Part shown: positions 4,106-45,427 of the stretch, in pieces
Position numbering within the stretch: the first letter of the stretch is position 1
Layout of the letters: each line of letters begins with the position of its first letter
Source: Lampropedia puyangensis
Lineage (GTDB): Bacteria > Pseudomonadota > Gammaproteobacteria > Burkholderiales > Burkholderiaceae_C
DNA: 64,000 nt
NCBI RefSeq assembly: GCF_004833285.1
Contig: NZ_STFG01000004.1
Coordinates: 1-64,000, forward strand
Direction: 5' to 3'
Notes under the pieces: generated by a model
Told to the model about the DNA's origin: nothing
The model's input: the letters and a program-made list of their open reading frames with translations, nothing else
Databases searched by the model: none
Program-made: the position numbers and the translations under genes

Positions 4106-5725
4106 TCACCACCCCAACGCCGCCCCATCGCTGCGCGGATCGTTGCCGCCTTCGAGCGTGCCGTTGGGGTGCCGGACAATCGCACCGGCATGGCCCATGG
4201 TTTCGTCATACGCGTTCAGCACGTCCACCTCATGGCCCATTTGGCGCAAGGCCTCGATGGTTTCTGCGGGAAAGCGCGACTCCAATTTCAATGATTCGCT
4301 GGTCTGCCCCCATGTGCGGCCCAACAGCCAGCGCGGCGCGGCAATAGCTGCTTGCGGATTCATGCCAAAGTAAGCGATACGGCTAAATACGGCACTTTGC
4401 GATTGCGGCTGACCATCACCGCCCATATTGCCGTATACCATGCAGCGCCCATCGTCGAACTGCGCCATGGCTGGGTTGAGCGTATGAAACGGTTTACGCC
4501 CTGGCATCAATGGGTTGAGCGCATTGGCATCGAGCGAGAAGCTGCAACCGCGGTTTTGCCAGTTCACGCCTGATTCTGGCAACACAAGGCCACTGCCAAA
4601 CTCATGGTAGATGCTTTGGATGAAGCTCACGGCAACCCCTTGGTGATCGATCACGCCCATCCAGACCGTATCAGCCGGCCCTTTGCCATTGCCCCACGGC
4701 TGGGCTTGGTGTGGGTCAATACCAGCGGCGAGTTGGTCCAACGCATCGGTTTGAAGGAAGTTAGCAGGGTTCACGGCCATGTAGGCAGGGTCGGTGATAT
4801 AGCGATCACGTACGGCAAAGGCTTGCTTGGTGGCCTCGACGCAAGCATGCACATAGCTGGCAGAGGTGGGCGTCATCTTCTTAACATCAACAAGACGGTC
4901 GAGCTGGCCCAAAATCATCAGCGAGACCAAGCCTTGTGTAGGGGGCGGCATGTTGTAGATGCGACCCAAAGAGTGCTGCAGCACTAGCGCTTCTGTCACC
5001 ACCGCGTGGTGCGCAGCCAAATCGGCTTGCGAGAGGGGACTGCCCAAGCCTTGCAGGTCACGCGCCATGCTGGCGGCCAAATCGCCCCGGTAAAAATCAT
5101 CCAAGCCCGCTTGCGCCAGCCGCTCCAGCGTCGCCGCCAAACGGGGCTGGCGAAAGATGCTGCCAGCTGCCGGAACGTGGCCGTCAGCGGTCAGAAATGT
5201 CTCGGAAAAACCGGCAATGTGTTGCAAACCATCGAGCTTTTGCGCGGTGCAGTTGGCTTGGCTTTGCGTGACAGGAATACCATCGCGCGCATAGGCAATG
5301 GCATCGGCCAGCAAACGCTCTAATGGCAGCTTGGCACCCAACTCCTGACGGGCATAACTGAGCGCGGCATCCCATCCGGAGATAGTGCCAGCCACCGTAT
5401 TGGCCGCCACCCCACCACGAAAAGGAATGCTGGCAAGCCCTTGGCTGCGCAGTGCCTCGGCGTTGACTGCTTGCGCTGCTGCGCCACAGGCATCAATGCC
5501 AATGGGTGCCTGACCTGGTTTGGCAATCAGCCAGAAGCCATCGCCACCAATACTGTTCATGTGTGGGTAAACCACCGCAATGGTAGAGGCAGCAGCAACC
5601 ATGGCCTCCACAGCATTGCCACCTTCGCGCAGCACGGCCAGCGCGCTTTGGCTGGCCAGCGCATTGGGGGCGGTAACCATGCCGCGAACTCCGCGCGCGG
5701 GGTTGGGGGTGAAAGAAGTAGACAC
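4106..5725 (-). CDS. ggt: gamma-glutamyltransferase family protein (Ntn hydrolase)
   Basis: 539 residues. The family makes a proenzyme that cleaves itself, exposing an N-terminal threonine that breaks gamma-glutamyl bonds. The large-subunit signature GMVTAPNALASQSALAVLREGGNAVEA (first part, residues 16-35) and the small-subunit motif DTVWMGVIDHQG (near residue 377) are present. The nucleophile Thr is retained, but the following residues are VWMG where E. coli GGT has THYS. No signal peptide is seen, so it is probably cytoplasmic, like the YwrD-type branch. The GTG start at 5725 is chosen because AGGAG stands 7 bases upstream. It is the last gene of the transporter/monooxygenase group, so its substrate may be a gamma-glutamylated or N-acylated compound; this is inference. 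Confidence 0.88.
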   Translation of the reverse strand: MSTSFTPNPARGVRGMVTAPNALASQSALAVLREGGNAVEAMVAAASTIAVVYPHMNSIGGDGFWLIAKPGQAPIGIDACGAAAQAVNAEALRSQGLASIPFRGGVAANTVAGTISGWDAALSYARQELGAKLPLERLLADAIAYARDGIPVTQSQANCTAQKLDGLQHIAGFSETFLTADGHVPAAGSIFRQPRLAATLERLAQAGLDDFYRGDLAASMARDLQGLGSPLSQADLAAHHAVVTEALVLQHSLGRIYNMPPPTQGLVSLMILGQLDRLVDVKKMTPTSASYVHACVEATKQAFAVRDRYITDPAYMAVNPANFLQTDALDQLAAGIDPHQAQPWGNGKGPADTVWMGVIDHQGVAVSFIQSIYHEFGSGLVLPESGVNWQNRGCSFSLDANALNPLMPGRKPFHTLNPAMAQFDDGRCMVYGNMGGDGQPQSQSAVFSRIAYFGMNPQAAIAAPRWLLGRTWGQTSESLKLESRFPAETIEALRQMGHEVDVLNAYDETMGHAGAIVRHPNGTLEGGNDPRSDGAALGW

Positions 5726-5960
5726 TTGATTTCTCCTGATAGAGCAATGGCGTGAGCCATCAACTACGCACGTGTAATGCAAAGTCCGCACGACCCAGCA
5801 CGCCAGGCATCAGACATGTTGTTAGCGCCGCTAACACAGCCCTTGATATGCCGCGACACCACTTGGCGTACCACCCGAACTGCCTTAGGTTTTGCATCTT
5901 GGGTTTTGCGCCTAGTCTTCAGCCGCACACTTTCGGTTTTTCGGGTTGCGTTAACCGCCA

Positions 5961-6470
5961 TTAATGCGACGCTGGAATGGGTTCAAGAGTGGCAAATTGC
6001 CCTTCCAACCAGCCAAGCGGCGCTGCGCCACCATCGCGGCCAACTACAGCCTCCACCTCGCCAATAAAAAGCGTATGCGATCCGAACGGAACAGTCTGGC
6101 GAACGGTACAGAAAATCGCAGCGCAGGCAGATGGAAGAAAAGGCATGCCGTCTTGCGTGCTCCAATCATTGGTGCTAAAGCGCTCATGACGGCGGGCACT
6201 GTCGGCAAACGGAGCGACCAGATCGGATTGGTCTACGGCCAGCAGGTTGATGCAAAATCGCCCCGCTTGTGCGATGGGGCCACAAGCGCTGGCTGTGTTG
6301 TTGATCGAAATCAGCATGGAGGGCGGATCCATTGATACCGGGATTACCGCCGAAGCGGCCATACCCATTGGCTGCTGCGTTTGCGCGTCGAGCGTGGTGA
6401 TCAAGGAGATGGGCCCTGGCATGCGGCGCATGGCAGATTTCAGCAGGTCTTTGTGCGTGGTGATAGTCAT
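5961..6470 (-). CDS. flavin reductase family protein (NAD(P)H:FMN/FAD oxidoreductase)
   Basis: 169 residues matching the HpaC/RutF-like split-barrel flavin reductases. Visible features are the N-terminal MRRMPGPISLITTLD, GMAASAVIPVSMDPPSMLISI (flavin-binding loop) and GRFCINLLAVDQ segments. Such proteins supply reduced flavin to a partner monooxygenase. The gene lies 76 bases downstream of an LLM-class monooxygenase on the same strand, so the two very likely form a two-component monooxygenase. The choice between FMN and FAD and between NADH and NADPH cannot be read from the sequence. Confidence 0.9.
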   Translation of the reverse strand: MTITTHKDLLKSAMRRMPGPISLITTLDAQTQQPMGMAASAVIPVSMDPPSMLISINNTASACGPIAQAGRFCINLLAVDQSDLVAPFADSARRHERFSTNDWSTQDGMPFLPSACAAIFCTVRQTVPFGSHTLFIGEVEAVVGRDGGAAPLGWLEGQFATLEPIPASH

Positions 6471-6546
6471 CTTGGTGTCTCAATCGTAGCCTTGAGCACG
6501 GTAGCGGGCCATTGACAGCGCCGCCACCGTGGCCGAGTGGGAGGAT

Positions 6547-7866
6547 TTAGAACGTTTCAACGCCCAGGTTTTCGCGCAGTGTGTTGCCGGTGTACTCTTT
6601 GCGGAAGATGCCACGCGCTTGCAACTCTGGCACCACGCGCTGCACAAAGGCTTCGACCCCGACTGGAAAGTGTGTGGGCACGGCTAAGAAGCCGTCGCAG
6701 GCGTCGTTGTCCAGCCACTCTTGCATGGTGTCAGCAATGGTGGTGGGTGTACCCACCAACTTCATGTAACTGCCTTCGGCAAAGCGCCGTGCTGTTTGCA
6801 AGATGGAGAGGTTCTCGCTGCGCGCCAGATTGACGATGGCTTCGCGGTGGGATTTGCCGGCATTGGTTTCTGGCAAATCAGGCATCGGGCCGTTCAGGTC
6901 GTAATCGCGGAAGTTCAGGCCACCTGAATGCGGCATCAAGTGGGTGATAGCCAAATCTTCGGGGATCAAATCGCGCATCTTCTCGCGGAAGGCTTGCGCT
7001 TCTGCCACCGTATCGCCCACGATCGGGGTGATGCCGGGCAGCACCTTGATTTTGTTCGGGTCACGGCCAAAACGGGCCGCACGTTGGCGAATGTCTTCGC
7101 GGAAGGCGCGACTGGCGGCCATGTCGGTTTGCAAGGTGAAGACCACATCAGCCGTGCGTGCTGCCAGCTCGCGGCCTGGTTCGGATGAACCTGCTTGGAA
7201 AATCACAGGCCGACCTTGCGGGCTCTTGCCCATCGTCAATGGCCCGCGCACTTTGAAGAACTTGCCTTCGTGCTGCAAAAAGTGCATTTTTTTGACGTCA
7301 AAGTACAGGCCTTTTTCTTTGTCGCGCAGGACGGCACCATCCTCCCAACTGTCCCACAGGCCGGTCACCACATCGACAAACTCACTGGCGCGCTCGTAAC
7401 GATCAGCATGCCCTGCGTGCGCATCCATGCCAAAGTTTTGGGCTTCACTTTCGTTGAAGGAGGTTACAAGGTTCCAGCCTGCACGCCCTTTGCTGATGAA
7501 GTCGATGGAGGCAAAACGGCGTGCCACGTTGTAGGGCTCGTTATAGCTGGCAGTTGATGTCGCAGCCAGCCCCAGATGTTTGGTCGCCATGGCCAAGGCG
7601 GGCAACAGCATCATGGGGTCAAAGTGGATCGAGCGGGGGTTGGCCGCGCCATAGGTATCGCCTTTCATGATGTCGTTGCTGCGGGGGATCGCGGCTTGGT
7701 CTTCAAAGAAGATCGCGTCCAGCTTGGCCGCTTCGGCAAGCTGCGCGGCGCGCACGTAGTGGTCGATGCCAACGTCCACTTCAGGGATGGCGTCGGGCAG
7801 GCGCCAAGCGCCCAGATGTTGACCGGGGAACAGAAAGAGCGCCAAGCTCATCATTTTGTTGCTCAT
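6547..7866 (-). CDS. LLM-class FMNH2-dependent monooxygenase (NtaA/SnaA/DszA type)
   Basis: 439 residues, the length of nitrilotriacetate monooxygenase NtaA and dibenzothiophene-sulfone monooxygenase DszA. The family pattern is clear: FFEDQAAIPRSND, ATSTASYNEPYNVARRFASID, KGRAGWNLVTSFNESEAQNFG and the C-terminal DGFLAVPTHFPVGVEAFVQRVVPELQARG. These TIM-barrel enzymes oxidise C-N, C-S or related bonds with FMNH2 and oxygen. The partner reductase is probably the next gene (5961-6470). It sits 123 bases downstream of the ABC importer genes, suggesting that the imported compound, or a product of it, is the substrate. Ribosome binding: AAGGA upstream of ATG 7866. Confidence 0.92.
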   Translation of the reverse strand: MSNKMMSLALFLFPGQHLGAWRLPDAIPEVDVGIDHYVRAAQLAEAAKLDAIFFEDQAAIPRSNDIMKGDTYGAANPRSIHFDPMMLLPALAMATKHLGLAATSTASYNEPYNVARRFASIDFISKGRAGWNLVTSFNESEAQNFGMDAHAGHADRYERASEFVDVVTGLWDSWEDGAVLRDKEKGLYFDVKKMHFLQHEGKFFKVRGPLTMGKSPQGRPVIFQAGSSEPGRELAARTADVVFTLQTDMAASRAFREDIRQRAARFGRDPNKIKVLPGITPIVGDTVAEAQAFREKMRDLIPEDLAITHLMPHSGGLNFRDYDLNGPMPDLPETNAGKSHREAIVNLARSENLSILQTARRFAEGSYMKLVGTPTTIADTMQEWLDNDACDGFLAVPTHFPVGVEAFVQRVVPELQARGIFRKEYTGNTLRENLGVETF

Positions 7867-40428: not shown

Positions 40429-41100
40429 TCATTTGCGTTTAGGCGCCGTGACACTCTTGGCAATGACATCCACGAAAAACCGACGGTCAAGCCACAACCA
40501 GATCAGTATCGGTAACAGCGTCGGAACAACCAGTGTGCCAAACTGAAATCCATACACAATTCCCTCAACCTGCCATGCATTCAAACGCAGCTGCGCCAAA
40601 TCAATATTGGTAGACACTACAATTTGAAGCAGAATGAAGAAAGCCAGTGTAAAAGCTTGAAATGGCAACAGCAGCAGGTAGCCTGCTATGGCTTTGCCCA
40701 ACATTTTTTTCTGTCTTGCAGCCAGCAACAGCGCCAAGAAAATTGGCAGGCCATACGCGTAACGAGACGGATCACCATCGAGCACCATTTCCGCTCTATG
40801 CCCCCCTGAGCCAGGAACGGGCACATCAACACGGGTATCCACTTCCAAATGGCCAGCAGGGACATCCTCCGTAGCGTCGGCCGAACCAATCATCTTGGTT
40901 TCACGAATCCAAGTTGGCGCCCCCACTTCTAAGGCTGCTCCAGCTATGACACCTGCAGGATAAGACGTCCACTGGTTAACAAACATCCAAATCGTCACAA
41001 GGATCGCCATCCAGGCAAACGCCGACACAGCAAAGACGGGGACACTCACTTCTCTGGATCGAGGCACTTTCGTTACTGGCTTAACAGAGACTTCAGACAT
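40429..41100 (-). CDS. exosortase H-associated membrane protein
   Basis: 223 residues with about four to five membrane segments: one near residues 20-45 (VFAVSAFAWMAILVTIWMFV), then a periplasmic section, then several helices (YGLPIFLALLLAA, AGYLLLLPFQAFTLAFFILLQIVV). Its position directly after the exosortase gene with an 8-base overlap (ATGTCTGA) fits the exosortase H-associated protein family known beside XrtH. Role presumed in the processing or anchoring of PEP-CTERM-like proteins. The start at 41100 is inside the end of the exosortase gene; a longer upstream open frame is rejected. Confidence 0.72.
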   Translation of the reverse strand: MSEVSVKPVTKVPRSREVSVPVFAVSAFAWMAILVTIWMFVNQWTSYPAGVIAGAALEVGAPTWIRETKMIGSADATEDVPAGHLEVDTRVDVPVPGSGGHRAEMVLDGDPSRYAYGLPIFLALLLAARQKKMLGKAIAGYLLLLPFQAFTLAFFILLQIVVSTNIDLAQLRLNAWQVEGIVYGFQFGTLVVPTLLPILIWLWLDRRFFVDVIAKSVTAPKRK

Positions 41101-41656
41101 GCGCCAACTCTCCAGCAGGTTCGTTGGAAGATTGCCCCACGCCGCCTTCTGGAGGATCCTCAGATCCATGGTCGTCCGCTCCTCGAATACTGCGCACCCA
41201 GAGCAACCACACGATCAGTACATCAATCATGATCAAGGCTTGCCAGAGATATTCGTGGGCGAATTTAAAAGCAGTGTCATTCCACTGACCAAGATAAAAC
41301 AGGCTAATGACCCGAACGACATTGACAGCCTGAATGGCAAAAAAGCCAATCACAATTCCAGCGCCCTTTGCACGCCAACTCGATGGATAGGCCATGATTG
41401 CTGAGAACAACACAATACATGCCTCAACACCATTGCAACCGGGTTCAATCGATACGCCAAAACCATTGGAAGGATTCCATAAAACCTTGCCGGCAGCCAT
41501 AGCGGTCGCATCAAAGGTTGTGACCAAATAGGCACAGATTTTGGCCAACAATGCCGTCCACGGCAGCACCACCGTCTCTTGAACGACGTTCAGCATATTG
41601 AGACCGAAAAGTCCCAATTGCAAAGCAAGAAAAACGAGAAAGAAACGCAACATGAC
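41093..41656 (-). CDS. xrtH: exosortase H (IPTLxxWG-CTERM-type sorting enzyme)
   Basis: 187 residues, polytopic membrane protein. Exosortase catalytic residues are visible: Cys in IEPGCNGVEACI (Cys73), Arg in NVVRVISLFY (Arg114) and His in FAHEYLWQAL (His133). The GCNGVEA form and short length match exosortase H, which cleaves proteins with an IPTLxxWG-CTERM tail. No protein with that tail was seen in this window, so substrates must be encoded elsewhere. It lies 185 bases downstream of a Roadblock gene on the same strand. Confidence 0.85.
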   Translation of the reverse strand, partial: VMLRFFLVFLALQLGLFGLNMLNVVQETVVLPWTALLAKICAYLVTTFDATAMAAGKVLWNPSNGFGVSIEPGCNGVEACIVLFSAIMAYPSSWRAKGAGIVIGFFAIQAVNVVRVISLFYLGQWNDTAFKFAHEYLWQALIMIDVLIVWLLWVRSIRGADDHGSEDPPEGGVGQSSNEPAGELAHV

Positions 41657-41841
41657 GAGACCTGAGAATTGAAATGCCAAAAATACATACCTCGAGGAAG
41701 AGGCATGGTCCTGCGCACAAGGATTTAAGCGAATGCTAACTCAAGTGTATGAAAAAGTATCGTCATCAGTAATTTGAAGTTCATGTCGAAATAGACACTC
41801 CCTACCCAATATTGACAATAGATACTTGTATCGTGGTCAAG

Positions 41842-42231
41842 TCACAACATCAGCCCAGCTAGCTGCTGCGACGATTTTTTGGCATCCAGCAATACACGCC
41901 CCAAATTAGCGCCACTTTCTGCAGACAATGTCAATGCACGCCCTGCTCCAGCCTCTGTCAGCAGCATGATTCCCGAGCTGCCCCCGAGAATGACTTGCCG
42001 TAGCTCCCCCACCTCGACCTCTTTGGCAGCACGTCTTGAAAGCGCCAATAATGAAGCGCACATGGCCCCGATGCGATCAGCATTGACATGGGCATCCGTG
42101 GCGGAAGCCAAAACAAAGCCATCAAAGGAAACCCATGCCGCTAATTCAATTTGTGTAGAGCTTGCACGCAACTCACGCAAAATGCTTCGGGCTTTCGATT
42201 GTTCTGCAGGAGGCAGCATGGTGTCAGTCAC
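41842..42231 (-). CDS. Roadblock/LC7-like domain protein (second copy in the cassette)
   Basis: 129 residues. Roadblock/LC7-like pattern: an alpha-beta unit with ELAAWVSFDGFVLASATD (first strand pair), a helix rich in Ala/Ser/Leu (ADRIGAMCASLLALSRRAAKEV), and GELRQVILGGSSGIMLLTEAGAG then ANLGRVLLDAK. Bacterial Roadblock proteins such as MglB bind small GTPases and act as their GAPs, or bind nucleotide-related ligands. Last of five minus-strand genes with a Ras-like GTPase. Confidence 0.85.
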   Translation of the reverse strand: MTDTMLPPAEQSKARSILRELRASSTQIELAAWVSFDGFVLASATDAHVNADRIGAMCASLLALSRRAAKEVEVGELRQVILGGSSGIMLLTEAGAGRALTLSAESGANLGRVLLDAKKSSQQLAGLML

Positions 42232-42278: not shown

Positions 42279-42680
42279 TTAGAGAGCACTCTCAATCGCT
42301 GGCATGGCCATACGCGATTTGGTCAATACCATGCCCAAATTCGCCCCTTTGCGGCATACAAACGTAGCCACCTGAGCTTGGTTCTTTCCTCGCAAGAAAA
42401 TGTGCAGCAAATTGTCACTGTTCACGATAATTTCCTGAAAGTAATGGCGACCATCTTCCTGAACACCGCGCACGCGGCGGAAAATCTTTTCAATGGCTTG
42501 CACATTTGGACCTTGGAACAAGTCGGCAGTCGCAGCTGAAAGCAAATCGATGACCTCTTGCGCATGCGAATCTACTGTCTTGATAGCCAGCAGCATTCCT
42601 GATTCAAGATCTACGTAACCAGCGGCAACGCAATCAGGAATAGTGGCAACGGCTTTCTCTAAGCTGGAATCGAGTGACAT
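42279..42680 (-). CDS. Roadblock/LC7-like protein (first copy in the cassette)
   Basis: 133 residues. Similar alpha-beta plan with CVAAGYVDLESGMLLAIKTVD, a helix (AQEVIDLLSAATADLFQGP), EIIVNSDNLLHIFLRGK strands and ANLGMVLTKSR at the end, matching the equivalent NLGRVLL region of its neighbour. Only moderate resemblance to classic Roadblock proteins, so it may be a divergent pair member. It lies 47 bases upstream of the second Roadblock gene. Confidence 0.7.
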   Translation of the reverse strand: MSLDSSLEKAVATIPDCVAAGYVDLESGMLLAIKTVDSHAQEVIDLLSAATADLFQGPNVQAIEKIFRRVRGVQEDGRHYFQEIIVNSDNLLHIFLRGKNQAQVATFVCRKGANLGMVLTKSRMAMPAIESAL

Positions 42681-42765: not shown

Positions 42766-44091
42766 TCATTCCGTAAATGTCACATTATTCACAATAAATT
42801 GTTGGAATTCACCAAGAAACAGCAATTGTCTTTCTGATTGAATCCAGCCTGAATCAATCCGGCGCATTGCAGCAATGGCTTGCGCAGCAGTCCAAGCCCC
42901 TTTGCTGCGCCACATCAAATACAGCGCCAACACTGTCCCTGTCCGGCCTTGCCCAGCTTTGCAATGCACAGCCAAGTGCGCCTGCTGTGCCAATTGCACA
43001 TCCAGCAATTCACAAAGCCCAAGCGCCTGCTCGACAGAGGGAGCCTCCATATCAGGAATAGGCACAAAAAGTCCTTTGATGCCATATTGCGCCAACAGTG
43101 CACCATCAAAAGGGACCTCCGTCAGGTTTAAAAGAGTATCGATTCCGACTCCTTGCAAACCTTGTAGGTCTTGGTGCGCATCGTTGAGCAGCCCTGGAAT
43201 TGATACGCCCGCCAATCGATCTGCCACCACCCATCTGAAACGAGAGGGCAGCAATGGATGCAATACCCCTGCACGAGGAATGCGCCCTGCAGTCAACTCT
43301 GCCAACGCGGATGCAAACAAATCACTAGTGCACGCGCTCTCGCGAGGGACAACCTGACTGCGCTCTTCGGCTAACGTGCCAAATTGCAAGAAATGGCGAA
43401 CAACATCGGAACTTGGAGTATCAAAAAAAAGCGTCGCAGGATGGGACGCCAAGACACGTCCATTGCCAATCAAGACCACCTGTTCGGCCAATGCGCGCGC
43501 ATGACCCAAATGGTGGGTAATGAATACTACGCTGCGTATTTGCGAAAGCATCTTGATCAATGCTTGCATACGCACCACCTCCGCCTGATCCAAATCTGCG
43601 GTAGGCTCATCGAGCAGCACCATGGCTTGCCCCAGGTAAGCCGCCCGCAAAACATTGAAGAGCGCCCACTCTCCGTCTGAAACAGCAGAAGCCTCCCGCA
43701 GCAGTAACGGCAACAGATCAGCCATATGCAGCGCATTAAACAGCTCTCGTAGTGACTGCATGACCTGACCTGCCGAGTTCAATTGCTCTTGGCAAAAGAA
43801 CTGCAGCACAGTCCCATCCGGACGCATTTGCTTCTGCTGCGCTATTGCTACCGAAATCGGCGCAGTGACATCCCAAGAAGTTAGCCGCGCCAACCAGTCG
43901 CCATCACTTAACTGCGTCTGCGATGTGCGGCTGAAGGAATCGACACATTGCAACAAGGTTGACTTGCCCGTCCCACACGGCCCCACAAGCGCAGTACAGC
44001 CATACAAAGGCAAGGACATACTCACATCAAACAAAACTTGTTTAGGGCCATACCATGCATTGAGCCCATGCAACGTCAATAACGCACCCAC
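42766..44091 (-). CDS. ABC-type ATPase fused to dual-specificity/tyrosine phosphatase domain
   Basis: 441 residues. Residues 1-235 form an ABC ATPase: Walker A GPCGTGKST (37-45), Walker B AMVLLDEPTADLD (156-168), H-loop FITHHLGHA. The signature is degenerate (AVSDGEWALF where LSGGQ is expected), although a D-loop is kept. There is no membrane segment and no permease gene nearby. Residues about 280-430 are a phosphatase of the cysteine-dependent type: general-acid Asp in PIPDMEAPS (Asp347) and P-loop VHCKAGQGRTGT (HCxxGxxRT, Cys377). The start of the next gene's partner, the GTPase, ends 4 bases before. Together with the GTPase and Roadblock genes it probably belongs to a signalling rather than a transport system. 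Confidence 0.85.
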   Translation of the reverse strand: MGALLTLHGLNAWYGPKQVLFDVSMSLPLYGCTALVGPCGTGKSTLLQCVDSFSRTSQTQLSDGDWLARLTSWDVTAPISVAIAQQKQMRPDGTVLQFFCQEQLNSAGQVMQSLRELFNALHMADLLPLLLREASAVSDGEWALFNVLRAAYLGQAMVLLDEPTADLDQAEVVRMQALIKMLSQIRSVVFITHHLGHARALAEQVVLIGNGRVLASHPATLFFDTPSSDVVRHFLQFGTLAEERSQVVPRESACTSDLFASALAELTAGRIPRAGVLHPLLPSRFRWVVADRLAGVSIPGLLNDAHQDLQGLQGVGIDTLLNLTEVPFDGALLAQYGIKGLFVPIPDMEAPSVEQALGLCELLDVQLAQQAHLAVHCKAGQGRTGTVLALYLMWRSKGAWTAAQAIAAMRRIDSGWIQSERQLLFLGEFQQFIVNNVTFTE

Positions 44092-44095
44092 ACCA

Positions 44096-44713
44096 TTACT
44101 CCTGAGTAGCCAAAGACGCCATTCTCTCGTGAAGCAAGGAGTCGGGATGCAATTGAAAAGACTCCAGCAATGCAGTCATCACCACCAAAACCACTGCAAC
44201 ATCACGTGGTTCGCGGGCGTCACACCACAGCACGGGTGGCTGGCAAAGACTGCAGGTGCACAGACTTTGCTGCTGGAAGTATTGCTGGTAAACAGCCAGA
44301 TCGCGTTGCGCATCATCTTCTGCATGCGTCACGGCAATGACAACGGGAAATCCATGTTGTACCTGCTCCGCCTGTTTAACCTTAACGGTTTGCAAGTACA
44401 CACCGAGATCAGCCAAACGCTCTGCACGACTATGGTCAACAAAGATAACGACTCCTTTGGCCTGTTCAAGCAAGATTTCCCACATGAAATCAAAGCGGTC
44501 CTGCCCTGGCGCTCCATGCAAGCGTAGCTTGTCACCATTGCCAAGCTCCATCACCCCCATATCCATCGCCACTGTCGTCGTCTCTTTCAAGGCAATGGTT
44601 TGCGCATCCGTTGCCACCACATCGGTGTCCACCACATCGATATCACTGATAGTTCGAATAGCTGTCGTTTTCCCTGACCCGACAGACCCCAAGACAGCAA
44701 TATTCCAATCCAT
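44096..44713 (-). CDS. Ras-like small GTPase-type protein
   Basis: 205 residues. P-loop AVLGSVGSGKTTAIRTISD (GSVGSGKTT near residues 9-17), switch-like TTTVAMDMGVMEL, G3 LHGAPGQDRFDFMWEILL (APGQ in place of DxxGQ) and a G4-like VTHAED in place of NKxD, all of which resemble the ATP/GTP-binding proteins paired with Roadblock genes in actinobacterial conservons and in Betaproteobacteria. Nucleotide specificity is therefore uncertain. ATG 44713 is preferred to an upstream start because it opens the first strand. It precedes the ABC-phosphatase gene by 4 bases and follows the unknown gene by 82 bases. Confidence 0.85.
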   Translation of the reverse strand: MDWNIAVLGSVGSGKTTAIRTISDIDVVDTDVVATDAQTIALKETTTVAMDMGVMELGNGDKLRLHGAPGQDRFDFMWEILLEQAKGVVIFVDHSRAERLADLGVYLQTVKVKQAEQVQHGFPVVIAVTHAEDDAQRDLAVYQQYFQQQSLCTCSLCQPPVLWCDAREPRDVAVVLVVMTALLESFQLHPDSLLHERMASLATQE

Positions 44714-44795
44714 AAGCGTCTCACCCCAATCGCAATGCAAAAAATATATTTTTATCTATCCCAAAATGTATGCCAATAGTCGCAAAGAACCAAAA

Positions 44796-45248
44796 CTACT
44801 GCTTATGCGTCAGCAACTTGCCCCACAATTTTTTGAGAAACGACTGCACCGGTGTTCCCGAAGTCAATGCTGCTTTGTTGGTCGATTCAGGCTCTACTGG
44901 GATTTCCTCTTGCGCCAAGCTCACAGCACCCGCCTCGGAAACTGCACCTGAGGCCTGAGCAAGATCCTCCTCCAGCGGCGACACAGAAGCCCCAACCTGA
45001 AAAAGACCAATACATTGCGCCGCGAACAATTGCTCAAGCATCGGCTCAACTTCATAACTTGGCAAATCGACCGAACGGTAAACCAAGAAGCCTACCGTAG
45101 GTTTGCGCGACAGGAGCGCACAAATACGTGCCAAGTCACCAACACGCGATCCATCGTATTCGCTGGAAAAATCAGGCCATTGCCTAAGGTACAGCAGCCT
45201 AGACCGTATATCTTGCTTGACTGCGTTCGTCTCTGTGAGGGTATCCAT
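44796..45248 (-). CDS. protein of unknown function, first gene of the Roadblock/GTPase cassette
   Basis: 150 residues. The N-terminal about 90 residues look globular, with ICALLSRKPTVGFLVYRSVDL and EPMLEQLFAAQCIGLFQVG forming a small winged-helix-like or effector-like pattern. The remainder is Ala/Glu/Ser-rich and probably disordered, ending in a basic helix (FLKKLWGKLL). No family recognised. The gene is upstream of the GTPase on the same strand, and the weakly DUF4388-like feel is only an impression. The start could be 45281 instead of 45248. Confidence 0.65.
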   Translation of the reverse strand: MDTLTETNAVKQDIRSRLLYLRQWPDFSSEYDGSRVGDLARICALLSRKPTVGFLVYRSVDLPSYEVEPMLEQLFAAQCIGLFQVGASVSPLEEDLAQASGAVSEAGAVSLAQEEIPVEPESTNKAALTSGTPVQSFLKKLWGKLLTHKQ

Positions 45249-45427
45249 TCCTGCCTTTCCCGAATAAAAGACATCGACCAAACTTTCGGCATCGTAGGGC
45301 CAAAGGCCTATCTCCGTCTAGGAATAAGGTGATTCCTTTAAAGCGCGAAACGAGCACGTCACGCAGCGAACTTCTGCTTCAAAAAGTATTCAGCAGAACG
45401 CGTTTGAACGCTTATTCGCGCAATACA

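Follow-up and report, generated by a model that had tools for sequence, protein, structure and literature searches.

We know of few outputs for modules of MglA-type GTPases and roadblock proteins outside Myxococcus and Streptomyces. In the sections of PMC4316618 drawn on here, the Group 3 MglA proteins of beta- and gammaproteobacteria are described as having a G1 motif GxxxxGK[T/S], a Thr replacing the G2 Arg, a G3 motif GTPGQ, a G4 motif without Lys, and a DAR in G5. Besides MglA, their operons encode one or two MglBs and a conserved unknown protein made up of a receiver-like part and a winged helix, and the same sections give an Asp-Gly pair for the MglBs coupled to Groups 2 to 5. The Group 3 mgl locus of Snodgrassella has been linked to gut colonization, possibly via type IV pili (PMC11112851, in the part used here), and a globin–roadblock protein of Methylacidiphilum, HGbRL, is presented as a putative sensor in the excerpts used of PMC4476040.

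The window, a 64,000-nucleotide stretch of a Lampropedia puyangensis contig (NZ_STFG01000004.1, positions 1 to 64,000), contains a locus of this kind with one further gene, which encodes an ABC ATPase fused to a dual-specificity phosphatase (DSP) (Table 1). In the window and in five congeners the order is the 161-aa protein, the GTPase, the fusion, and the roadblock proteins RbA and RbB. The GTPase has G1 GSVGSGKT; KETTTV, with Thr for the G2 Arg; G3 GAPGQ, one residue off GTPGQ; G4 VTHAED, lacking Lys; and G5 CDAREP, with the DAR. Together with the MglB homologues of the operon (RbB by Pfam, RbA by fold), these are the features given for Group 3. The upstream protein is less easily placed: a profile of the Vandammella 161-aa protein was matched in none of 19 other stretches, and its one weak BLAST match (E = 0.002) is to the C-terminal part of a 384-aa protein upstream in L226, one of two such proteins of 383 to 384 aa (the other in L224) that resemble each other at 1.9e-38. 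Directly downstream in the window lie exosortase H and its associated protein, neither of which was matched among nine related stretches; we therefore do not count them as part of the module.

Table 1. Features of the fusion gene and its neighbours in the window
Feature	Coordinates	Strand	Remarks
161-aa protein	44796..45281	minus	TTG start as called; upstream of GTPase
MglA Group 3-type small GTPase	44096..44740	minus	214 aa from first start codon TTG; ATG at 44713 is a likelier start
ABC ATPase–DSP phosphatase fusion	42766..44091	minus	441 aa; GTG start four bases past GTPase stop; 39 distinct homologues
ABC nucleotide-binding domain, residues 2-240	43372..44088	minus	Pfam ABC_tran; VIA-align to PstB
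Walker A GPCGTGKST, residues 37-45	43957..43983	minus	G37, P38, G42, K43, S44 in 39/39
Degenerate ABC signature region AVSDGEW, residues 136-142	43666..43686	minus	LSGGQ in 0/39
Walker B VLLDEP, residues 158-163	43603..43620	minus	D161 and E162 in 39/39
Linker, residues 241-280	43252..43371	minus	mostly pLDDT about 50
DUSP23-like dual-specificity phosphatase domain, residues 281-437	42781..43251	minus	Pfam; structure and sequence matches
General acid Asp347 (predicted)	43051..43053	minus	39/39
Phosphatase loop HCKAGQGRTGT, residues 376-386	42934..42966	minus	H376, C377, G380, G382, R383, T384 in 39/39
RbA, roadblock/LC7-fold protein (predicted)	42279..42680	minus	133 aa; AlphaFold2 and Foldseek; constant partner of fusion
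RbB, Robl_LC7, MglB-like	41842..42231	minus	129 aa; Pfam PF03259, 3.5e-11; Asp-Gly pair (SFDGF)

A preliminary description of this DNA, which did not give the strand, had placed both domains in one frame. They do lie in a single ORF, part of a 469-codon open frame on the minus strand; read on the plus strand, the same span has 14 stops. The motifs it named (GPCGTGKST, VLLDEP, and HCKAGQGRT with Cys377 and the general acid Asp347) are all present, and the phosphatase loop, said to come some 210 residues after Walker B, begins 213 residues after the Walker B Pro. The description makes no mention of the roadblock partner, the Group 3-type MglA operon, or the linked ferredoxin–globin gene. That description had also allowed that a sequencing error might have joined two genes or that homologues elsewhere might prove to be split. 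Neither is what we find: the 39 distinct full-length homologues, from many genera, are single genes read in a single frame, and this excludes a sequencing error. A chance joining, for which the original absence of known examples was the only point in favour, thus has next to no probability.

The searches returned 41 full-length fusions, reduced to 39 by dropping two duplicates (L052 and L056, from the same genomes as L168 and L164) before any count was made. L047 is the same contig as L038, and four loci with RbA and no intact fusion (L165, L166, L169, and L173) stand outside the 39. A contig search with the single window protein found no relative; an alignment query did, and the best 80 of its 492 loci were kept. 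Because 16 of the 39 were reached only through RbA (L154 to L163, L170 to L172, L225, L227, and L228), results of fusion-first searches are given apart below. Full-length homologues occur in five of nine congeners (G001, G003, G005, G007, and G008) and, in the family, also in G012 (two copies), G017, and G027. The class sample has a full-length fusion in 5 of 274 genomes, at 475 to 637 bits, and the next match there is ABC-only at 164 bits. Among the matches listed, fusion bearers include Vandammella animalimorsus NML 03-0146, Comamonas sp. BIGb0152, C. testosteroni ATCC 11996, a Comamonas MAG, Delftia tsuruhatensis NBRC 16741, Stenotrophomonas ginsengisoli, and Acidocella aromatica, as well as MAGs labelled Burkholderiaceae, Methylotenera, and Deltaproteobacteria.

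The ABC domains of all 39 fusions form one clade, apart from 69 other ABC domains, with a support of 0.978. The tree of the DSP domains, with four outgroups, gives no clean clade (38 fusions cluster at 0.96 and 37 at 0.99, and the smallest group holding all 39 includes the outgroup L099), so it is the ABC tree that argues for a single origin. Judged from these sequences, the fusion is a real, conserved family of predicted enzymes. The preliminary description knew of no such fusions, and the literature searched on the fusion or its context, mostly sources other than subscription journals, yielded no description of one.

The phosphatase half is readily recognized. Its Pfam matches are Tc-R-P (1.7e-20) and PTP-SAK (3e-20), with their best stretches within residues 282 to 421, and DSPc (2e-8), all above the cut-offs; the names of the first two show that related phosphatase domains have already been noticed in multidomain proteins. 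In structure it matches human DUSP23 (2img; Z 22.6, rmsd 1.8, 148 residues aligned, 32% identity), and by sequence its nearest relative is 25xa, a "dual specificity protein phosphatase family protein" (1.5e-22), followed by DUSP23 (9.2e-14). A CX5R loop and a general-acid Asp within a DSP fold, here C377, R383, and D347, are found in all 39. The domain is by its sequence an intact Cys-based dual-specificity phosphatase with a predicted active site. Structure prediction, proposed with the preliminary description, gives two confident domains and a flexible linker: the AlphaFold2 model built with the 39 homologues has a mean pLDDT of 89.4 and a pTM of 0.61, and it leaves the mutual orientation of the nucleotide-binding domain (NBD) and the phosphatase undefined.

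What the phosphatase acts on is less easily read from its fold, since a DUSP23-like fold is no proof of a protein substrate. One can envision a nucleotide, an inositol phosphate, or a phospholipid head group as the substrate, sensed or presented by the ABC domain. The weaker matches do include PTPlike_phytase (below cut-off) and PTEN, whose loop has a Lys after the Cys, as do 13 of the 39 fusions. However, the others have Leu (20), Arg (5), or Asp (1) at this position, so that the Lys is no family rule, and the nearest matches are 25xa and DUSP23. We regard a nonprotein substrate as rather unlikely. Considerably less probable still is a role as effector or immunity part in a conflict or defence module. 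The Tc-R-P family is named for polymorphic toxin systems, and PADLOC reports a match to mad3 (1.2e-15), but the best stretch of that match, residues 131 to 211, falls inside the ABC domain, as do most of the PHROGs and PADLOC matches of the fusion. Above cut-off the fusion has only ABC/P-loop and DSP/PTP-type families; the neighbour proteins scanned with Pfam, three of them also with PADLOC, gave no defence or toxin family, and no toxin family was seen in six scanned neighbours. Moreover, the fusion was found on no plasmid at E 1e-25, and RbA is strongly conserved, with a mean column identity of 82% over eight sequences.

The ABC half combines conserved and lost elements. ABC_tran matches residues 22 to 165 above cut-off (2.7e-13), and no NCBIfam family passes its cut-off among the best 25 of 167 matches of the fusion. 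The nearest relatives are the importer ATPases PstB and ArtP; aligned with Escherichia coli PstB (9k3x) by VIA-align, the domain gives Z 25.1 and rmsd 2.3 over 227 residues. Of the canonical ABC elements, Walker A, Walker B, the Q-loop (Q86), and the H-loop (H193) are invariant in the 39 fusions and LSGGQ is absent. VSDGE (residues 137 to 141) stands in its place in the window protein, and across the family the Ser position has Ser in 14 and Pro in 17, with the second Gly kept in 6. The degenerate signature pointed out in the preliminary description is therefore a rule of the family. In ABC dimers, the signature half of one NBD closes on the ATP held by the other. The fusion thus keeps the catalytic Glu and the cis half of the site but has lost the half that closes on ATP across the dimer, and by analogy with such dimers this loss would make it a switch or a slow ATPase. 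It had been suggested earlier that the domain hydrolyzes ATP differently or acts only as a sensor; the loss of the signature fits this idea, but retention of the catalytic Glu in every one of the 39 speaks against a domain that is purely dead. It also seems improbable that the ABC domain serves RbA purely as a scaffold and carries a constitutive phosphatase in which nucleotide has no part. Although the signature is lost throughout, K43, S44, Q86, D161, E162, and H193 are all invariant, and a mere scaffold would not need them.

The relation to PstB and ArtP raises the question of transport. Many ABC ATPases carry a C-terminal regulatory domain, and the fusion might be an importer ATPase in which the phosphatase plays that role. 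The preliminary description had seen no permease neighbours; this holds for the window, where the gene is flanked by the GTPase and a roadblock-fold protein, but not for all relatives. At 3 of 37 loci (L044, L049, and L161), a gene for a BPD_transp_1 ABC permease (Pfam 1.9e-15, 1.2e-19, and 4.1e-15, respectively) comes immediately before the fusion in the upstream direction, on its strand and 254 to 642 bases away. These three permeases are 77 to 87% alike, and on the other side of each lies a divergently oriented gene for an LSGGQQQR ATPase (64 to 87% alike; two overlapping frames in L044), so this permease comes with its own canonical ATPase, although the fusion might still serve it and the three loci count in favour of a transport role. 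By a crude test for same-strand ORFs with four or more predicted membrane segments, 30 of the 37 loci have none within 4.5 kb, and in 4 of the remaining 7 (L051, L054, L154, and L164) the multispan ORF is 1.4 to 2.6 kb away. (L039 and L040 stand outside this test, the inspection for two-component genes, and the globin-profile scan of 55 stretches.) With LSGGQ lost in 39 of 39 and RbA rather than a permease as the constant neighbour, an importer ATPase is an improbable reading. Since LSGGQ was looked for and found in none, we file the fusion not with the transporter family but as a new component of roadblock/small-GTPase signalling systems. DegP/HtrA proteases are encoded near L053, L054, L161, L162, and L164, and genes resembling two-component systems were seen by eye near some loci; we take both for shared synteny.

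RbA gave no Pfam or NCBIfam match, and a PDB sequence search returned five matches, armadillo and NLR proteins among them, at E 0.0065 and worse, none of them a relative. The fold search settled the matter: the AlphaFold2 model (pLDDT 90.8) matches a Streptomyces roadblock protein (3kye; E 5.8e-8) and Thermus MglB (1j3w; TM 0.74, E 1.3e-7) in Foldseek. RbA thus has, as modelled, a roadblock/LC7 fold. By eye, the place of the Asp-Gly pair is occupied by VDLESG in RbA and by SFDGF in RbB. Without the pair, RbA would suit a role as the fusion's partner better than one as a GAP (GTPase-activating protein), and RbB is likely the better candidate GAP of the two.

The pairing of RbA with the fusion is very regular. 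The two genes are on the same strand at all 39 loci and within 135 bases at 38, the exception being L048 (2,669 bases); the fusion comes first in 33 and RbA in 6. The fusion-first searches tell the same story, with RbA at all 10 full-length loci (L047 to L056) among the 80 kept of 492 and in all 5 positive genomes of the 274 in the class sample. Searching from the side of RbA, we found it in 23 of the 299 family genomes, at 27 places in all, of which 23 adjoin an intact fusion. The other four have a remnant only (L146/L169) or no fusion within about 1.5 kb or in wider stretches (L149, L151, and L152). Of 369 genomes in the class sample, 8 have a strong RbA match (E below 1e-50) and 15 more a weak one; all six strong cases outside the family have the fusion. 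At the 18 weaker class-level loci there is no fusion within about 1.5 kb, and the same GTPase lies beside 12 of them. The phylum sample has 37 positive genomes of 398, five of them strong, and none of the 25 weak loci tested (L198 to L222) has a fusion within about 1.5 kb.

The fusion is frequently, but not necessarily, partnered by the GTPase. The GTPase profile (A3) has a match beside the fusion or RbA at 12 of the 39 loci, namely the window, five congeners, L172, and five of the six class-level loci outside the family. L172, a family locus in genome G239, has GTPase, fusion, RbA, and RbB together; RbB is also near three class-level fusion loci outside the family (L225, L226, and L227), and at L048 an Arf-like GTPase-domain protein is encoded between RbA and the fusion. 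Somewhere in the genome, the profile finds a match in 27 of 36 genomes searched, among them the fusionless congeners G002, G004, G006, and G009, where the GTPase is elsewhere in the genome. The nine without a match are seven fusion bearers (G012, G244, G167, G161, G168, G158, and G184) and two genomes with no intact fusion (G325 and G153).

A second possible input emerges from other genomes. At 5 of the 39 loci by profile (L048, L172, L224, L225, and L226), the module is adjoined by a gene whose product is a 2Fe-2S ferredoxin–(flavin reductase)–globin protein; the L226 gene encodes globin only and, counted from its first start codon, has a four-base overlap with the RbA stop. In the wider scan of 55 stretches with the globin profile, three of them also examined with Pfam, a ferredoxin domain was seen at the contig end of L043 and lower-scoring globin matches at two weak-RbA loci (L235 and L236). 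Within the family, the globin profile matches 9 of 299 genomes, and all 9 are among the 23 that are RbA positive (hypergeometric p = 1.8e-11 by genome and 1.0e-7 by genus, kinship ignored in both); by genus, all 7 globin genera fall among the 17 RbA genera of 141. The globin gene is elsewhere in the genome in seven of the nine and beside the module in G239, and in G017 globin and ferredoxin fragments at two contig ends may be one gene beside the module. All 15 strong globin matches in 36 chosen genomes are in genomes with an intact fusion, and the fusionless congeners (G002, G004, G006, and G009), with G325 and G153, have nothing beyond one match at 9.8e-4. Fourteen of the 23 RbA-positive family genomes, including that of the window, have no match to the globin profile.

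Taken together, these observations lead us to propose, with a probability of about 0.53, that the fusion is a Cys-phosphatase, regulated by ATP and recruited by a roadblock dimer, and that it forms the enzymatic arm of an MglA/MglB-like module. It probably acts as a cytoplasmic signalling enzyme in a small-GTPase pathway rather than in transport. We imagine that the fusion is bound by an RbA dimer and thereby taken to a site under GTPase or redox control. ATP binding at the noncanonical NBD, with hydrolysis slow or absent, would then switch or position the phosphatase, which would remove phosphate from a protein, most likely a substrate of the cell's Ser/Thr kinases or some component of the module itself. 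The timing may be set by MglA and by RbB, its likely GAP, in genomes having both, and the ferredoxin–globin protein may provide an O2, NO, or redox input in others. Here we infer the substrate and the direction of the signal and guess at the order of signalling.

Several lines of evidence favour such an ATP-regulated, roadblock-recruited phosphatase: the invariant phosphatase and Walker residues and lost signature of the 39 fusions, the single ABC clade, the tight pairing with RbA (also when searches start from the fusion), and the roadblock fold of RbA. The GTPase beside 12 of 39 fusions and 12 of 18 distant RbA homologues, and the confinement of the globin to RbA- or fusion-positive genomes, point the same way. 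Against it are the seven fusion genomes without a GTPase match, the 14 RbA-positive genomes without the ferredoxin–globin gene, the permease upstream at three loci, and the four family places at which RbA has no intact fusion. Pkinase domains occur in 24 of 25 genomes examined, three fusionless congeners included, and 8 of 14 control genomes have them as well. The window genome has one, on another contig, with counterparts in the fusionless congeners G002, G006, and G009. Given the matches in fusionless congeners and controls, domains as widespread as these do not single out the opposing kinase. A more elaborate scheme, in which the ferredoxin–globin sensor and the MglA-type GTPase converge on the RbA dimer and thereby control a phosphatase gated by the NBD as an ATP-bound switch, is possible and, in our view, still doubtful.

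If this scheme is true, it would be a bacterial signalling circuit of a new type, in which an NBD, once a motor for transport, has come to regulate the dephosphorylation of proteins. The simpler proposal, too, would make the fusion a case of an ABC domain controlling a Cys-phosphatase. A conserved enzyme with two intact predicted active sites is genetically tied to a roadblock protein, in C. testosteroni too among the matches listed, and the pair provides a direct and testable handle on what MglA/roadblock modules do.

Each part of the fusion has a familiar counterpart. The NBD has the fold of the PstB/ArtP-type importer ATPases (Z about 25), from which the window protein differs in lacking LSGGQ, in having no permease beside its gene, and in its C-terminal phosphatase. 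The phosphatase shares fold and active site with DUSP23 (VHZ) and the bacterial DSP 25xa, but these are chains of 150 to 162 residues that lack an ABC domain. Among ABC ATPases outside transport, PhnK/PhnL on C-P lyase and the A2 component of methyl-CoM reductase activation are likewise NBDs serving soluble enzyme complexes; to our knowledge, none of these is fused to a phosphatase. Among the seven proteins scanned between 40432 and 45281, there is no CvnA-type histidine kinase. The operon resembles the Group 3 MglA/MglB systems (Wuichet and Søgaard-Andersen, 2014, in the sections used) in having a protein encoded upstream of the GTPase, a DAR GTPase without the G4 Lys, and two roadblock proteins, all on one strand. 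It differs in its ABC–phosphatase gene, of which the sections used of PMC4316618 describe no example (the word "phosphatase" occurs 0 times in the main text), and in that RbA lacks the Asp-Gly pair that the sections used give for MglBs of Groups 2 to 5. As in HGbRL, a globin is linked to a roadblock domain, but by separate genes together with the ABC–DSP fusion rather than in one protein (PMC4476040, in the excerpts used). The actinobacterial conservons CvnABCD, with a Group 2 MglA, likewise combine roadblock protein, small GTPase, and a further signalling enzyme in one operon (PMC4316618, in the sections used); that enzyme is a histidine kinase in the conservons and an ABC ATPase–phosphatase here.

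The fusion and its roadblock partner RbA co-occur with ferredoxin–(reductase)–globin proteins, which carry C-terminal Cys pairs (five loci; see the table). Other genes were also seen around the module. At L053, L054, L161, L162, and L164, a gene close to it encodes a protease of the DegP/HtrA type, with Trypsin_2 and PDZ domains, and, as judged by eye, two-component-like genes recur around the module at some loci. Immediately 5′ of the fusion at three related loci (L044, L049, and L161) is a gene for an ABC permease, which is paired with a divergently encoded LSGGQ ATPase of its own. Chemoreceptor-like genes are found near the module as well: at L156, the immediate upstream neighbor of the fusion is a PAS–MCP protein by Pfam; read by eye, a PAS chemoreceptor-like gene adjoins RbA at L045, and at L169 the PAS-like part continues in frame into a fusion remnant, followed by RbA.

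In the window, the operon is followed immediately 3′ by genes for exosortase H and an XrtH-associated membrane protein, neither of which had a match in the nine related stretches tested. A second MglA-type GTPase is encoded elsewhere in the same genome (G000:C12:173491-174000).

Coordinates of genes near the module or RbA copies
Feature	Location	Strand	Basis
Exosortase H	window 41093-41680	-	TIGR04177, 3.8e-67
XrtH-associated membrane protein	window 40429-41169	-	NF041730, 2.1e-47
ABC permease with ATPase	L044 9675-11453	-	
ABC permease with ATPase	L049 5936-7570	+	
ABC permease with ATPase	L161 10701-12368	-	
Ferredoxin–(reductase)–globin	L224 5665-7257		
Ferredoxin–(reductase)–globin	L225 about 5387-6937		
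Ferredoxin–(reductase)–globin	L226 7922-8560		
Ferredoxin–(reductase)–globin	L172 8890-9999		
Ferredoxin–(reductase)–globin	L048 10659-12590		
PAS chemoreceptor-like	L169 7651-9093	+	by eye
PAS–MCP protein	L156 2497-4317	-	Pfam
PAS chemoreceptor-like	L045 10601-12247	+	by eye
Pkinase domain	G027:C1:3403496-3404254		

RbA relatives also occur away from the fusion. One fusion-less RbA copy (L165, G027:C1:3404000-3421000) and a Pkinase domain are separated by roughly 8 kb. A diverged roadblock clade without the fusion (L233 to L236 and further loci of the phylum sample) belongs mostly to one family outside the window's class and forms tandem pairs in several genomes. On the Ruegeria sp. B32 plasmid NZ_CP081107.1 (L299, 2705-14399), an RbA homologue sits amid four genes of the dynamin family, after which come genes for a Ser/Thr kinase and an FHA protein; the homologue is 39% identical to the RbA of L044, and homologues of this type are present on five Ruegeria plasmids.
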